Assembly: GCF_003933245.1 (NCBI RefSeq)
Contig: NZ_QUSX01000002.1
Coordinates: 1-64,000, forward strand
Length of the DNA stretch: 64,000 nucleotides
DNA from: Maribacter algicola
Lineage (GTDB): Bacteria; Bacteroidota; Bacteroidia; Flavobacteriales; Flavobacteriaceae
Reading direction: 5' to 3'
Made by a program: the position numbers and the translations under genes. The notes beneath the pieces are model-generated. The model saw nothing but the letters and a program-made list of their open reading frames with translations, did no database searches and was not told the origin of the DNA. Below are positions 52,995 through 59,006 of the stretch, one piece after another (position 1 is the first letter of the stretch; each line of letters begins with the position of its first letter).

Positions 52995-53078
52995 GGAGAG
53001 GTGCCGGAGTGGTAACGGAGCAGATTGCTAATCTGTCGACGCGTAAGTGTCGCATGGGTTCGAGTCCCATTCTCTCCG
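52995..53078 (+). tRNA. tRNA-Ser (GCU anticodon)
   Basis: The acceptor stem GGAGAGG pairs with TTCTCTCC-side bases ending CTCTCC, with discriminator G. The anticodon loop is TTGCTAA (anticodon GCT, reading AGC/AGU). A long variable arm (GTCGACGCGTAAGTGTCGC) marks a class II tRNA. The T-arm is ATGGG-TTCGAGT-CCCAT. CCA is not encoded. Confidence 0.95.
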
Positions 53079-53104: not shown

Positions 53105-53179
53105 CGGGGTGTAGCGTAGCCCGGTTATCGCGCCTGCTTTGGGAGCAGGAGGTCGCAGGTTCGAATCCTGCCACCCCGA
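53105..53179 (+). tRNA. tRNA-Pro (UGG anticodon)
   Basis: The acceptor stem CGGGGTG pairs with CACCCCG, with discriminator A. The anticodon stem CCTGC/GCAGG holds loop TTTGGGA (anticodon TGG). The T-arm is GCAGG-TTCGAAT-CCTGC. CCA is not encoded. Its 3' half is repeated in decayed form near 63.76 kb. Confidence 0.95.
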
Positions 53180-53623: not shown

Positions 53624-55675
53624 TTAAATAAGTTCACTGTTCTCTAGATTATTTTTGAGTTTAGCATGATTTTCCCAGAAGCGGTCTTTGATTTTTTGAA
53701 TGATGCCATCAAACTCGGGATGACTTTTTAAGGGTTTAATAAGTGGTTCATCTTCAATTAATAAAAACCAATAGAGATAATTCTCTGCTTTGGAAAATAT
53801 TCTAAGCTCTTCAACTGCCTCATTAATCTTCCCTTCATACGCGTATTTCCAAACGAGATTCACACTTTTATAATTCGATTGATCACCTTTGCAGTATTCA
53901 GAGAAATCATTAAACAATTCGTCAGCTTTTTTATCCAAGCCCATCTCTTTGTAGACCTGTGCAATTTTGACGTTTTCCTGTATATAAATATCCAGTCCAT
54001 TTACTTCCCTGGCTTTCACAAATTTTTTAAAATAGGAATAGGCACTGTCATACTTTTCCTCAATGTAGTACAACTTCCCTATGTCCTGTAAAATATCAAG
54101 CCGAGTAGTATCCTTCTTCCATTCGTTTAAAAGTAAATTCCTTGTACGCTTAATATTACCATCCTTGGCGAAGAGAATAAATGCCTTTAAGTGCGGAGCA
54201 AAATAGTTTTCAGCATTATAATCCAAAGACTTGTTGATATATTTCAAGGCTTCATCTGCAAATCCTGAGGATACAAGGGCATTGCTTAGCTGTAAATATG
54301 TGTAGCTCTGGGTAATGGAATCACTCGCAACGGTAAGCTGAACCCCTTTTAAGGCATACTCTAGGTATTTATTGGTATTGGGAAGCATATGTGAGTAAAA
54401 TTCCGCCAGCATTTGTACCGCCAGCGATGAATTAGGATTATACTCCAATGCCTTATCAAGATGTGGCAAGGCCAAATTGTATTCCTTTGTTTGTATATAG
54501 TAAAAGGCCTTGGCGACCAAGCTTTCGGCAGATTTTGAATCATAGAGCAGGGCCTTGTCCGCAAAGCTGTTAATCTTTTCGGTGTATTGCTTTTCGAGTT
54601 GGGACATTTCGAGCAGATAGTATGAAATGGCGATGTTGGCATAGGCGAGGGCAAATTCCGAATCTTGTTCTATGGCCTTTTCAAACAATGCAATGGCCTT
54701 TTCTAAGCCTTCTTCTGTGCGTGAATAATAAGGATCCAATGCTTGTAGGTAGTAATCATAGGCCAACAGGTTTTCAGTTGGTTTTTTTTCAATCTGCTCC
54801 AATTCGGCCGGTGTCACGACAGCTGCAATGGCATCTGCGATTTTCTTGGCCACATCGTTTTGCAGCTCAAAAATGTCCTCAACTTCCCTATTGTACTGTT
54901 CCACCCAAATAGGGGTATCTGTTGAAGCGTTAATCAATTGTACGTTGAGTAAAACTTGATTGCCGACGCGTTGGCCACTACCTTCTACCAAATAGTTCAC
55001 ATCCAATTCTTCGGCAATCTCTGGAATGCCCTTATCGGTTTTTCTATATTTCTCTACCGAGGTTCTACTGATGACCCGTAAATCCTCAATCTTCTGAAGG
55101 TTGTTCAATGCGGATTCCATCAACCCATTTACAAAATACAAATTGGTAGAATCGCTGCTCTCATTTTTAAAGGGCAATACCGCAATTGATTTTTCAGTTT
55201 TCGGTTCATTTTTAGCATCTTTTTTATTGAACAGTACTATGCCAATTATTATCACCGCTAAGGATGTTGCTGCAATTAGCGGCCAGCGATATCTCTTCAA
55301 AATGTTGGTTTGGACCTTTTCTGGTTCGACCACCACAGTATTTTTTCCAACCTCCCCGGGGGAATATCCGTACTGTTCCCGAAAGCATTTAATGAAATAG
55401 GAAGTGCTTCCAAAACCTACTTGATACGAAATTTCGGAAACCGTCGAAGAATTATCCTTGAGTAGCTCCATGGCTTCTTTAAGACGGACTTGACGAATAA
55501 ATTGACTTGCCGAAAGTTGTGTTAGTTTTTTGATTTTCCGGAGCAGGTTGGACCGGCTCATGCTCATAGCATCCGCCAATTCCGAAACCCCAAATTGCTC
55601 GTTGGCCAGGTTTTCCACAATTATGGCCTCTGCTTGGGTTAAAAAAGTTGATTTGATGGGAGATTCGTTGGACAT
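53624..55675 (-). CDS. Membrane-bound AraC-type regulator with FlgO-like and TPR domains
   Basis: 683 residues. Residues 1-112 form an AraC-type DNA-binding domain: FGVSELADAMSMSRSNLLRKIKKLT, then VSEISYQVGFGSTSYFIKCFREQYGYSPGE. A single membrane segment (about 128-150, WPLIAATSLAVIIIGIVLF) follows. Outside it is a TolB/FlgO-like domain (SIAVLPFKNESSDSTNLYFVNGLMESALNNLQKI, VNYLVEGSGQRVGNQVLLNVQLINA) and then about eight TPR units to the C-terminus. This layout puts a sensor in the periplasm and a DNA-binding domain in the cytosol, so it should convey an envelope signal to transcription without a kinase. It is divergent from the tiny-ORF cluster at 55.9 kb, a likely target (inference). Confidence 0.88.
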   Translation of the reverse strand: MSNESPIKSTFLTQAEAIIVENLANEQFGVSELADAMSMSRSNLLRKIKKLTQLSASQFIRQVRLKEAMELLKDNSSTVSEISYQVGFGSTSYFIKCFREQYGYSPGEVGKNTVVVEPEKVQTNILKRYRWPLIAATSLAVIIIGIVLFNKKDAKNEPKTEKSIAVLPFKNESSDSTNLYFVNGLMESALNNLQKIEDLRVISRTSVEKYRKTDKGIPEIAEELDVNYLVEGSGQRVGNQVLLNVQLINASTDTPIWVEQYNREVEDIFELQNDVAKKIADAIAAVVTPAELEQIEKKPTENLLAYDYYLQALDPYYSRTEEGLEKAIALFEKAIEQDSEFALAYANIAISYYLLEMSQLEKQYTEKINSFADKALLYDSKSAESLVAKAFYYIQTKEYNLALPHLDKALEYNPNSSLAVQMLAEFYSHMLPNTNKYLEYALKGVQLTVASDSITQSYTYLQLSNALVSSGFADEALKYINKSLDYNAENYFAPHLKAFILFAKDGNIKRTRNLLLNEWKKDTTRLDILQDIGKLYYIEEKYDSAYSYFKKFVKAREVNGLDIYIQENVKIAQVYKEMGLDKKADELFNDFSEYCKGDQSNYKSVNLVWKYAYEGKINEAVEELRIFSKAENYLYWFLLIEDEPLIKPLKSHPEFDGIIQKIKDRFWENHAKLKNNLENSELI

Positions 55676-55843
55676 ATCGTTTACTACTGGCTCTAAATTA
55701 GGTAAAATCTAGAGAATTAAGCGTTTTCTCGAAGGCCACCTAATTATCAGAAAAGTATCTTTTGCGTCATAATTTACATCCTTGCGCCATAGTTTTTATA
55801 GCCTCCTAAAACTTTACATAGTTCTCCGCATAGCTCATATGGG

Positions 55844-55869
55844 TTGCTTCAAGTTCGATAGCATCTTTG
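55844..55869 (+). promoter_or_regulatory. Candidate promoter of the tiny-ORF cluster
   Basis: TTG (55844-55846), a 15-nt spacer and CATCTTTG (55862-55869, one mismatch to TAnnTTTG) lie 40 nt before the first tiny ORF, in the 234-bp region divergent from the AraC-type regulator gene. Confidence 0.35.
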
Positions 55870-55909
55870 TACCAACAAAAATCATAACGAACAATTTAAA
55901 ACAATAATT

Positions 55910-56023
55910 ATGAAAGCATCAATCACAAGAACGGTAACCGAATCAAGAACAGGACAGTACTTCTCAACGTTCAGCAATAGCAAGAGAACCCAATGGGCGC
56001 AGTATAGGAACTTCAATAGATAA
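55910..56023 (+). CDS. Tiny ORF family member A1 (37 residues)
   Basis: It starts MKASITRTVTESR and ends YRNFNR. It is basic (about seven Arg/Lys and one Glu), aromatic-rich near the C-terminus, and has no signal peptide or membrane segment. Its coding status is supported by comparison with A2 (56170-56283): same length, 31 of 37 residues identical, and about ten synonymous third-position changes. A Shine-Dalgarno site is weak, with an A-rich leader as for neighbouring genes. It is the first gene divergent from the AraC-type regulator. The function is unknown; a short regulatory, toxin-like or signalling peptide are possibilities. Confidence 0.7.
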   Translation: MKASITRTVTESRTGQYFSTFSNSKRTQWAQYRNFNR

Positions 56024-56045
56024 TAAACCTTAAAAAAACATCATC

Positions 56046-56165
56046 ATGGAAAATTCACCTTTATATCCATTCCGTCAGAGAAAATTTTTTGGAATTGGAT
56101 TCGGTTGGAGCACCGACAGGCTGTTTGACCGAAGAGTTAACAATAGAAAAAAGATACAAAATTGA
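56046..56165 (+). CDS. Tiny ORF B (39 residues)
   Basis: It starts MENSPLYPFRQRKFFG and ends NNRKKIQN. It is strongly basic, with a Gly/aromatic centre (FFGIGFGWSTDRLFDRR). It lies between A1 (22 bp upstream) and A2 (4 bp downstream), a spacing that suggests one message. No relative is seen in the window, so coding status rests on position and composition only. Confidence 0.45.
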   Translation: MENSPLYPFRQRKFFGIGFGWSTDRLFDRRVNNRKKIQN

Positions 56166-56169
56166 AATA

Positions 56170-56283
56170 ATGAAAGCATCAATCATAAGAACGATAACGG
56201 AATCAAGAACAGGACAATACTTCTCATATTTCAGCAACAGCATGAGAACACAATGGACACAGTACAGGAACTTTAACCGGTAA
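56170..56283 (+). CDS. Tiny ORF family member A2 (37 residues)
   Basis: It starts MKASIIRTITESR and ends YRNFNR. It aligns with A1 without gaps; the differences are few (T6I, V9I, T20Y, K25M, A30T and similar), while many codons differ only at synonymous positions (ACC/ACG, CAG/CAA, AAT/AAC, TAT/TAC, AGA/CGG). The frame can be extended upstream to 56089, but that part overlaps ORF B and has no counterpart in A1, so 56170 is preferred. Confidence 0.7.
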   Translation: MKASIIRTITESRTGQYFSYFSNSMRTQWTQYRNFNR

Positions 56284-56321
56284 TCATGGTCCGAAAGAAA
56301 ACATCAAAAAACAACACAGTC

Positions 56322-56366
56322 ATGAAAACGAAGATTCACGAATACTTATTAAAATCAAATAACTAA
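56322..56366 (+). CDS. 14-codon leader ORF, copy 1 of the MKxxIHEYxLKxN module
   Basis: It encodes MKTKIHEYLLKSNN and ends 3 bp before the A3 start codon. The 75 nt from 56322 align without gaps to 56587 and 57275, where the same codons are fused in frame to larger genes; here codon 15 is TAA. An in-frame ATG at 56286 would extend it by 12 codons. Confidence 0.5.
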   Translation: MKTKIHEYLLKSNN

Positions 56367-56369
56367 GCC

Positions 56370-56495
56370 ATGTGTAAAACAATCATCAATCAATCACCAA
56401 GGGAATCTAGAAGGTTCACTTTCCTTTCCCAATTAAAGGATAGTAAGCGGATCCGTTGGGCTGAATCGAGATACTACCTTCACCAAATACACTAA
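56370..56495 (+). CDS. Tiny ORF family member A3 (41 residues, divergent)
   Basis: It starts MCKTIINQSPRESRR and ends YYLHQIH. From ESR onward it aligns with A1 without gaps: ESR, ten residues, SKR, two residues, WA, two residues, R, then an aromatic pair. This shared spacing makes it a third family member. Its first codons (M-x-K-T-I) also match the second start region of the MKxxIHEY module copies at 56587 and 57275. No function is known. Confidence 0.6.
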   Translation: MCKTIINQSPRESRRFTFLSQLKDSKRIRWAESRYYLHQIH

Positions 56496-56586: not shown

Positions 56587-57231
56587 ATGAAATCAAAGAT
56601 TCACGAATACCTGTTAAAATTAAATAAGAAAGGCGTGAGTAAAACAATCAAAAATCAAATTACGTGTATTGCCTTTGTTTTAATATCTGCAATGACATTT
56701 GCTCAAAACAATAAGAACGCCCAAAACGATTTTAGCCGAGAAGGGTTTATGTTCGAATTTGTGCTAGGTGGAGGTATAATAAGCATAGAAGATAGTGCTG
56801 GAATTCAAAATTTTGATAAATCTCAAGAAACGTTCATTTTTCCAGATTTCAAGATCGGCTACATGCTAAATAATCGTTTAGCCGTTAACGTTTCTGCACC
56901 GGGAATGATCTACGCGGTTAATAATAACGACAGACACTTTGGAGCTATTATACCAGCTGTTCAGTACTGGGTAAAAGACAAGTGGTGGATACATGGAGGT
57001 GCTGGTTTAGCTATAGACTCTCCTGCATTATATGATATTAAGGATAACCTAAATGACGATTGGAATACTGGAATCGCAGTTTTGGTGAGTACGGGTTATG
57101 AGGTTTACAGAAAAAACAAATTTGCCTTAAACCTTCAATCTAAATTACTCATGGGTGGAGTAAAGCTAAATAATAACATTGACAGAGATGCGGTACAGTT
57201 AAGTTTAGGAATTGGCTTTAGCTGGTTTTAA
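56587..57231 (+). CDS. Outer-membrane beta-barrel-like protein with the MKxxIHEY leader module
   Basis: 214 residues as drawn. The first 14 codons encode MKSKIHEYLLKLNK, the conserved module. The functional start may be the GTG at 56635, since a clear signal peptide follows it (TIKNQITCIAFVLISAMTFA, cleavage near FAQ). The mature part alternates aromatic and polar residues as in an eight-stranded barrel (FEFVLGGGIIS, FKIGYMLNNRLAVNVSAPGMIYAV, WWIHGGAGLAI, GIAVLVSTGYEVY) and ends GIGFSWF, with the terminal Phe of barrel proteins. Ligand and role are unknown. Confidence 0.78.
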   Translation: MKSKIHEYLLKLNKKGVSKTIKNQITCIAFVLISAMTFAQNNKNAQNDFSREGFMFEFVLGGGIISIEDSAGIQNFDKSQETFIFPDFKIGYMLNNRLAVNVSAPGMIYAVNNNDRHFGAIIPAVQYWVKDKWWIHGGAGLAIDSPALYDIKDNLNDDWNTGIAVLVSTGYEVYRKNKFALNLQSKLLMGGVKLNNNIDRDAVQLSLGIGFSWF

Positions 57232-57274: not shown

Positions 57275-57922
57275 ATGAAATCAAATATTCACGAATACCA
57301 ATTAAAATTAAATAACATAGTAATGAGTAAAAGATTTAAAATCAATTCTTTAAGAACCTTAATATACATGTCATTAGTTCTTCTTTTACTTACTTCAGCT
57401 TGCGGTCAGTCCGGCAACAAAACAAAAGCTGAGGCAAACGATAACACTGAAGCCCCTGCAGTTGCAAAACCGGAAATAGATATTCAAGCAGCAATACTAT
57501 CGGACAATCTTGAAGCCGTTAAACAGCATATTTCGGCAGGAACAGATTTGAACAAAAAAGACCCCATGACCGGGGCCACTCCGTTAATCACTGCGGCAAG
57601 TTTTGGAAAAAACAAGATTGCCCAAGTCCTTATTGATGCCGGGGCGGATTTAACAATCAAAAATAACGATGGGGCGACAGCTTTGCATACGGCCGCATTC
57701 TTTTGTAGGGTCGAAGTCGTACAGTCCCTTATTGACGCCAAAGCCGATAAGACAGCCAAGAACAACTTTGGTATGACGCCAAGGGAAAGTGTTATGGGGC
57801 CTTTTGCTGAAATAAAGCCCATTTACGAAATGCTTCAGCAACAATTAGGACCGATAGGTTTACAAATTGATTTGACGGAAATCGAAAAAACCCGTCCGGT
57901 CATTGCAATGATGTTGCAGTAA
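57275..57922 (+). CDS. Ankyrin-repeat lipoprotein with the MKxxIHEY leader module
   Basis: 215 residues from the ATG at 57275, or 199 from the ATG at 57323. The first 14 codons encode MKSNIHEYQLKLNN, the third copy of the module. Lipoprotein signal YMSLVLLLLTSAC follows the second ATG, arguing that secretion uses 57323 as start. The mature part holds a linker rich in Ala/Glu and about four ankyrin repeats (MTGATPLITAASFGKNKIAQVLIDAGADL, NDGATALHTAAFFCRVEVVQSLIDAKADK, NFGMTPRE). It is probably a protein-binding periplasmic lipoprotein. Confidence 0.82.
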   Translation: MKSNIHEYQLKLNNIVMSKRFKINSLRTLIYMSLVLLLLTSACGQSGNKTKAEANDNTEAPAVAKPEIDIQAAILSDNLEAVKQHISAGTDLNKKDPMTGATPLITAASFGKNKIAQVLIDAGADLTIKNNDGATALHTAAFFCRVEVVQSLIDAKADKTAKNNFGMTPRESVMGPFAEIKPIYEMLQQQLGPIGLQIDLTEIEKTRPVIAMMLQ

Positions 57923-57944: not shown

Positions 57945-59006
57945 ATGACAACTGAAAGAAGATACGATATCGATTGGCTACGGGTTGTAGCTATAGGCTT
58001 GCTACTCATCTATCATATAGCCATTATATTTCAACCCTGGGCCATGTTAATAGGCTTTATAAAGAGTGATGAATCCCTAGAGGGTTTATGGAAACCGATG
58101 ACCATGCTTAACGTCTGGCGAATCCCATTGCTATTTTACGTATCGGGAATGGGACTTTACTTTGCCATGCGTAAACGAAATTGGAGACAATTGATTTTGG
58201 AGCGCACAAAGCGGATTCTCTTGCCCTACCTATTTGGTATTGTTGCCATTACCACCATGCACATGTTCATTTTTCAGCTATACTATAATATGCCATTAGG
58301 TTATTTTCCCCATCAAGGCCATTTATGGTTCTTGGGGAATATCTTTTTGTACGTACTTATACTCTTACCGTTTTTTTACTACCTGAAAAAGGATGGAAAC
58401 GGTAAAATAAAAAGGATGTTATCGTCTCTCATGGGCCATCCCGGTGGCCCTTTGTTGATATCCCTATTTTTTGTCCTAGAAGTTGTGTTGGTAAAACCCC
58501 AGCTATTTGCTTTATATGCCCAGACATGGCACGGCTTTTTTAATGGGCTTCTTGCCTTTTTATTCGGCTATCTTTTTGTGTACAGTGGTAATATATTCTG
58601 GCAGACCGTTTTAAAATGGAGATGGTTATATATTGGTTTGGCCGCTGTTTTGTTCGGCATCCGATATTTTATATATGCTACGGAAGCGCCAGGTTATCTG
58701 ACGGCCATGGAATCTAATTGTTGGATTTTCGGGGTTTTCGGTCTCGGGTACAAATATTTGAACCGGCCAAGTAAAACACTAAGTTACTTGAGCCAGGCAG
58801 CATACCCTGTATATATCATTCACATGTTTGCTTTATATGCAGGAGCACTGCTCATATTACCATTGGAGATACCAACCTTATTGAAATTCATAGCTATTGT
58901 AGCTTTTACTGGTGTAGGTTGCTTTATCGTTTATGAGTTTGTTCTTAGAAGGATTGTTTTTTTAAGGCCTTTTTTCGGATTGAAATGGACCTACAAAAAA
59001 AATTAA
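57945..59006 (+). CDS. Acyltransferase 3 family integral membrane protein
   Basis: 353 residues with about ten membrane segments. The opening RRYDIDWLRVVAIGLLLIYH carries the family's Arg-x-Leu-Asp-like start and the conserved His after the first segment; RKRNWRQLILERTKRILLPYLFG is the typical arginine-rich loop. Family members transfer acyl groups to extracellular sugars or lipids. No partner SGNH domain is present. It is 22 bp after the ankyrin gene. Confidence 0.9.
   Translation: MTTERRYDIDWLRVVAIGLLLIYHIAIIFQPWAMLIGFIKSDESLEGLWKPMTMLNVWRIPLLFYVSGMGLYFAMRKRNWRQLILERTKRILLPYLFGIVAITTMHMFIFQLYYNMPLGYFPHQGHLWFLGNIFLYVLILLPFFYYLKKDGNGKIKRMLSSLMGHPGGPLLISLFFVLEVVLVKPQLFALYAQTWHGFFNGLLAFLFGYLFVYSGNIFWQTVLKWRWLYIGLAAVLFGIRYFIYATEAPGYLTAMESNCWIFGVFGLGYKYLNRPSKTLSYLSQAAYPVYIIHMFALYAGALLILPLEIPTLLKFIAIVAFTGVGCFIVYEFVLRRIVFLRPFFGLKWTYKKN

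Follow-up and report, generated by a model that had tools for sequence, protein, structure and literature searches.

The window (the whole 64,000-nucleotide stretch of Maribacter algicola DNA that was analyzed) contains a row of four tiny genes on its forward strand. Three of them belong to one family, here called family A: A1 (55910..56023, 37 amino acids; profile, alignment, and codon analysis), A2 (56170..56283, 37 amino acids, within a longer frame that starts at TTG), and A3 (56370..56495, 41 amino acids; profile and alignment), the last of which represents a second subtype. Between A1 and A2 lies B (56046..56165, 39 amino acids), a member of a second small-protein family. Divergent from this array, on the reverse strand, is the gene for a 683-amino-acid AraC-type regulator with TPR repeats (53624..55675; Pfam HTH_18, E = 8.3e−21; HTH_AraC, E = 8.1e−13; several TPR matches), and an intergenic control region that is conserved in 11 aligned genomes separates it from A1 (55676..55909). 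The coordinates, lengths, and reading frames that a first-pass annotation had given for A1, A2, A3, B, and the regulator proved exact in every case. The AraC and TPR parts that it had assigned to the regulator were confirmed by Pfam, but the FlgO domain that it had also named has no Pfam match.

Downstream of the array, on the same strand, are genes for a 214-amino-acid, probably exported protein without a confident Pfam match (56587..57231; YaiO, E = 0.045, below the cut-off), for a protein with ankyrin repeats (57275..57922; Pfam Ank_2, E = 6.6e−17), and for a member of the acyltransferase 3 family (57945..59006; Pfam Acyl_transf_3, E = 4.3e−26). A 14-residue open reading frame (ORF), MKTKIHEYLLKSNN, sits immediately before A3 on the forward strand (56322..56366), and its DNA recurs elsewhere. 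The stretch coding for MK[ST]KIHEYLLKLNN is repeated as this free ORF and as the N-terminus of the genes at 56587 and 57275, and it also forms the N-terminus of one gene at G000:C2:560013. Starts that resemble it are present in the related loci L044, L045, L049, L051, and L052.

Between A1 and A2, 17 of 111 bases differ, distributed 4/3/10 over the three codon positions (approximately 10.75 synonymous and 6.25 non-synonymous differences; dN = 0.074, dS = 0.80), which makes the earlier description of these differences as mostly synonymous a fair one. An alignment of A1, A2, and A3 with 21 relatives needs no internal gaps and centers on the core ES[RK]...SKR..WA..R; the block ESR-x10-SKR-x2-WA-x2-R that had been noticed between A1 and A3 is present and corresponds to this family core. 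Instead of the three members initially proposed, family A has hundreds, with 237 distinct 37-codon sequences among the loci that we examined. Exactly 37 amino acids are encoded by 376 of the 471 family A hits with an assigned start (redundant loci counted), and conservation spans all 37 residues rather than a short core. The third codon position is the most variable (entropies of 0.81, 0.83, and 1.26 for the three positions), and pN/pS, pooled over 5147 pairs of the 237 sequences, is 0.244. The proposed selection on the amino acid sequence is borne out on both of the counts that could have refuted it: homologues with a conserved frame exist, and their codon positions change unequally.

Tandem repeats with similar spacers, and the matches to the array DNA in 18 of 36 genomes of the same genus, could also be expected if an RNA or DNA repeat element were conserved and the ORFs were incidental. 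This explanation is largely refuted, and we consider it hardly credible. Frame and length are preserved, pN/pS is low not only in family A but also in two further families described below (0.41 in family C and 0.34 in family D), and 36 proteins of family D are already gene calls in databases. Moreover, Rfam detected only two tRNA genes in the window region (52995-53078 and 53105-53179) and nothing in ten related loci; with a coding signature and without an Rfam match, the array does not have the marks of a structured RNA element.

In a profile search (best E = 4.5e−22), family A was found in at least 35 of 36 Maribacter genomes and in at least 56 of 397 Flavobacteriaceae genomes representing at least 35 of 237 genera, among them Eudoraea, Robiginitalea, Saonia, and Pricia. 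In draws of genomes from the order and from the phylum, which repeat genera, the family was present in at least 5 of 296 and at least 4 of 395 genomes, respectively, and every matching genome belonged to the same family. All of these presence counts are lower bounds, because candidates were scored in part (for example, 19 of 40). The copies are arranged as same-strand tandem arrays, with no locus that has copies on both strands. Some arrays meet runs of N or contig ends (L107 and L165; G004, G024, G029, and G032), and copy numbers in draft genomes are therefore probably too low.

A search seeded with B of the window plus two relatives that lie upstream of arrays retrieved 24 distinct B homologues of 33-43 amino acids with the pattern RP[RK]IYFxIGxGWxTDRLY. 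With that many homologues, B as a chance ORF is ruled out. The window's B is the only significant copy in its genome (E = 7.4e−18). The first-pass annotation had correctly placed B as interleaved with the A genes, and B turned out to be a second conserved family; the claim that B is basic holds only weakly (mean charge +3.3, lowest −1). By sequence comparison, A1, A2, A3, and B belong to two protein families that occur in same-strand tandem arrays in part of the Flavobacteriaceae, and we regard it as practically certain that they are real, conserved coding genes.

The impression that no known peptide family carries the motif was upheld. When 24 family A members were compared with Pfam, NCBIfam, and PHROGs, each library was matched by one or two members and none of the matches was significant (best E = 0.037, 0.13, and 0.14, respectively). 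Families C and D had no matches in NCBIfam, nine array proteins (from families B, C, D, and others) had none in Pfam, and family A had none in phage or plasmid records. With the 41-residue A3 as query, a word-based search of 5.8 billion database proteins yielded no homologue. Among the open-access full texts searched, we found no paper on these tiny genes, and a single paper on another subject contains the string AGTACTGTAACA. Genes of 22-45 codons mostly escape annotation, and whole-genome DNA reveals the family in dozens of genera despite the empty protein database search with A3.

Most arrays share a promoter of the type recognized by extracytoplasmic function (ECF) sigma factors. Of 109 distinct arrays whose upstream DNA was available (duplicates and arrays with fewer than 150 bases upstream being excluded), 86 are preceded by the core TGTAAC-N16-CGTC, and its spacer is exactly 16 bases in every one of them. 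The consensus of the 86 promoters is tAAaAtaGTACctTTTtataCATAGTACTGTAACAAaa...tCGTCT. A pair of RGTACY boxes precedes the core; the two boxes are palindrome-like, approximately 17 bp apart, located just before the −35 box, and almost invariant. The 23 arrays without an exact core comprise 9 that are divergent from an AraC/TPR regulator of the window's type, one in which a single base of TGTAAC is changed (L070), and 13 others. ECF-driven arrays that include B often have it after the promoter and ahead of the first A copy, while in the window it is found between A1 and A2.

Pattern searches of the window's genome located a single copy of the full element, which lies ahead of another array, one of four family A copies (C2:497402-498066), and 89 bases upstream of the first of them. 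The reversed pattern, used as a control, had no matches in this genome or in the 397 genomes of the family. The shorter pattern TGTAACA-N15-CGTCT occurs five times in the window's genome (reversed control, 0). One of the five sites is the array promoter, another lies 47 bases before the gene for an ECF sigma factor, two precede genes for a 119-amino-acid protein and a 130-amino-acid protein (ankyrin-like by eye), and the fifth has no clear gene nearby. Downstream of the sigma gene, its operon encodes a 149-amino-acid protein in the place of an anti-sigma factor, two DUF4252 proteins, and a channel of the MscS type. This operon is located at L211 4415-8158 (G000:C2, approximately 375-379 kb). 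An orthologue of the sigma factor is present in 35 of 36 Maribacter genomes, and the core promoter precedes its gene in 28 of 30 Maribacter loci.

ECF regulons are typically recognized by a sigma gene that is autoregulated from the promoter type it shares with its targets, and TGTAAC/CGTC is similar to ECF promoters, for example those of Bacillus subtilis sigma-X and sigma-M. The fixed-spacing elements common to the arrays, combined with a sigma gene that appears to be autoregulated, have the form of such a regulon, and it is highly probable that an ECF sigma factor controls the promoter-bearing arrays. Because the sigma gene of the DUF4252 operon has the same core promoter, we consider its product the candidate sigma factor of the arrays, an assignment that promoter likeness alone suggests. 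A different ECF gene (CL3) that is located nearer to many Maribacter arrays was rejected as a candidate, since the core promoter was absent in 9 of 9 upstream regions examined.

The window's own array does not carry this element. Among the loci that we examined, homologues of the regulator are divergent from a family A array in 12 genomes from 4 genera. In 11 of these genomes, representing three genera, the AraC/TPR gene and A1 are separated by a conserved region of 234-237 bases, and the ECF-type promoter is absent from that region in all 11 and in the twelfth genome as well. In the window, the region contains two direct copies of TTGCGYCATA that are 20 bp apart (TTGCGTCATA / TTGCGCCATA, 55762..55791), which may be an AraC-type operator. 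Across the aligned regions, an xAnCTTTG box is conserved at the position expected for a Bacteroidetes −7 box, and the window's copy on the forward strand (CATCTTTG, 55862..55869) is a candidate primary-sigma promoter of the array. It is one base off TAnnTTTG, the −7 consensus given in an excerpt of PMC9723704. A divergent regulator and a direct-repeat candidate operator near a promoter are consistent with the window array being an AraC regulon.

The twelfth genome (G114), which belongs to the fourth genus, has the same divergent arrangement with a regulator that is 67% identical, and it has two further arrays, each preceded by a promoter element with one mismatch. In a genome of the same genus as the window (G022, L036/L090), three subtype I copies and one subtype II copy follow an ECF promoter. 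In that genome, the order of subtype I and then subtype II follows the ECF promoter; the window and other genomes of the genus have this order after the AraC-divergent region. Since the copy order is the same behind both types of control, the simplest reading is promoter replacement at an existing array, and we think it likely that the window's array is an ECF-type array whose control was replaced by the divergent AraC/TPR regulator. In Kriegella, one region (L192) contains a homologous regulator, an acyltransferase, and a single family A gene.

Linkage to the regulator, which the first-pass annotation had raised, is thus real in 12 genomes but not general, given that 86 of the 109 arrays follow the ECF-type promoter. 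The linkage has some bearing on whether the proteins could be exported signalling peptides that the divergent AraC/TPR regulator, or regulators like it, would sense, the role that the first-pass annotation had named first. In addition to the regulator-array neighborhood, three single family A copies are located beside other AraC-type regulators (L168, L186, and L189), and tandem copies would raise the output of a signal. Most arrays, however, have no such adjoining regulator, hydropathy reveals no hydrophobic export signal, and it is the entire 37 residues that are conserved; we consider signalling quite improbable.

The promoter extends beyond family A. With up to 3 mismatches allowed, the element was found in 131 of the 397 Flavobacteriaceae genomes, representing 97 of the 237 genera. 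In the phylum draw, a near-identical pattern was detected in 5 of 395 genomes, all of them among the 41 listed genomes of the same family, and among the genomes listed it was absent from those of g127, the commonest genus in the draws. Where family A was not found, the element precedes other tiny ORFs. Family C (28 amino acids, MRTLNNNQLTG...WNSKRRYR) often has two copies after the promoter; family D (44 amino acids) has the pattern ...KISRxLNxITQENL...WKGxKRYAH; and rarer kinds are also located downstream of the promoter. The 36 database proteins of family D are hypothetical proteins where named, except for two whose UniRef entry is Transposase.

We examined 70 promoter-site loci, of which 30 were returned by the search and 40 came mainly from genomes in which family A was not found; one locus without a match to the regular expression (L274) was dropped, leaving 69 regions. 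Of the 69 regions, 66 contain at least one ORF (22-60 codons) that carries W-x3-[RK]-x-[YFH] close to its end; this motif was chosen post hoc on the very loci in which it was counted. The same motif was found in 0 of 69 regions on the opposite strand, in 3 of 1380 shuffles, and in 7 of 2529 random stretches of 600 bases. It is missing from 21 of 244 A peptides, from 5 of 24 B peptides, and from 3 of the 69 regions. In profile comparisons, the similarity of A to C (Prob 6.4%, P = 0.0058) and of A to B (Prob 1.0%) does not establish homology, and the C-termini of A, C, and D align without confidence. In 21 of the 69 regions (L249-L318), the row of tiny ORFs has an ExbD-like gene after it in the same orientation.

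We conjecture, tentatively and with some doubt, that one dedicated ECF promoter with its RGTACY pair drives, in approximately two-fifths of the sampled Flavobacteriaceae genera, rows of 2 to 5 tiny proteins, that these proteins belong to several dissimilar families with nothing in common but a C-terminal W-x3-[RK]-x-[YFH] tail, that the tail is what is conserved, and that the rows are the output of a stress response. Such stress-response rows of tiny proteins would be unlike any system known to us. If the tail is the working part of the proteins, it would be a short motif whose target a pull-down could recover. Because one conserved promoter points to these tiny genes, the small proteins that an ECF stress response produces could be listed across the whole family.

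The properties of the proteins bear on what they may do. Family A is hydrophilic and basic (mean charge +6.2; mean GRAVY −1.17; highest 15-residue hydropathy 0.89), and hydropathy indicates neither an export signal nor a hydrophobic helix. A strong positive charge is common to families A, C, and D, although the D set used for charge and hydropathy was collected with a loose pattern and includes a few unrelated ORFs. The AlphaFold2 model of family A has helices at residues 9-22 and 25-35 and is poor (pLDDT 69.7, pTM 0.30), and a Foldseek search of PDB with this low-confidence model returned 0 matches. An 18-residue match to the Borrelia proteins of PDB entries 3n8b and 3nm7 was not significant (E = 0.13 and 0.15). 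These proteins, labeled uncharacterized in the database, are ones that we take to be PUR-domain proteins. The PUR-domain nucleic-acid-binding fold was rejected as a candidate, the match being treated as chance.

Neighboring genes in 100 loci form no constant cluster: the commonest neighbor is found in 38 loci, a consequence of local synteny, neighbors differ between lineages, and most arrays are stand-alone. The 100 loci thus lack the constant modification or export neighbors of precursors of ribosomally synthesized peptides (RiPPs) or bacteriocins. The proteins are small, mostly basic, multi-copy, and behind an inducible promoter, as might be toxins, antimicrobial peptides, or parts of a toxin-antitoxin system. 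Type I toxins carry a hydrophobic helix, which family A does not have, so that the earlier guess of small toxins, if hydrophobic ones are meant, fits poorly with the mean GRAVY. The stand-alone arrays also have no constant partner gene, no immunity-like neighbor was recognized, and phage and plasmid records held no match. A toxin role seems to us more improbable than even a signalling one.

Hydrophilic and basic proteins without a hydrophobic helix, encoded in stand-alone arrays without a constant partner gene, are the reason that we favor intracellular stress proteins. We propose that an ECF sigma factor with the same core promoter before its own gene would switch the arrays on, and that the window array is probably such a copy whose control was taken over by the divergent AraC/TPR regulator. 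The proteins would be soluble, intracellular, stress-induced partners of nucleic acid, the ribosome, or RNA polymerase, which they may contact through the C-terminal W-x3-[RK]-x-[YFH] tail, and the tandem copies would serve high output. As a whole, this explanation (real tiny soluble proteins, ECF arrays, a rewired window array, and a role as stress partners) seems to us evenly balanced between being right and being wrong. The binding of nucleic acid, ribosome, or polymerase is its weakest step, which we put forward as a possibility more doubtful than the promoter-defined class itself.

The next-favored reading is a specific protein partner: the tiny proteins may be adaptors or inhibitors of one protein (e.g., an anti-sigma factor, a protease, or RNA polymerase) that provide stress feedback and use the tail as a docking motif. 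A short, conserved C-terminal motif common to otherwise unlike sequences and a dedicated promoter would suit such a role, and because neighbors vary by lineage, the partner would be encoded elsewhere. Yet no partner candidate was found, and the strong positive charge of A, C, and D is no less compatible with nucleic acid as the partner, which leaves this reading rather unlikely.

Several known systems resemble parts of the proposed one. Comparable material comes from the SM6 ECF promoters of Flavobacterium psychrophilum (PMC9723704) and from the sigma-hypothetical-DUF4252 gene order PG0985-87 of Porphyromonas gingivalis (PMC10434189). As excerpted in these sources, the ECF regulons of Bacteroidetes have, as here, a CGT-type −10 box and an autoregulated operon of sigma and anti-sigma genes; unlike here, the excerpts mention neither tandem tiny-protein genes nor an RGTACY pair. 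The SM6 regulon includes, according to an excerpt of PMC9723704, the putative regulatory RNA Rfp11, which could be related to the arrays.

Compared by description only, the tiny proteins are also similar to Sra of Escherichia coli in being very short and basic and in having a stress-type control. Sra is a small ribosome-associated protein that is induced under stress or in stationary phase. Searches of Pfam, NCBIfam, and a PDB set gave no sequence match, and to our knowledge neither tandem arrays nor the C-terminal motif are features of Sra. The control of the window array resembles that of an AraC-type regulator with a divergent target operon, in both the divergent regulator and the direct repeats, 20 bp apart, of the intergenic region. 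In contrast to the usual AraC divergent operon, its targets are rows of tiny genes, and its regulator carries TPR repeats toward the C-terminus. Small proteins controlled by alternative sigma factors have precedents; the combination of tandem rows, a dedicated promoter, and a tail common to unlike families is new and possibly represents a new class.
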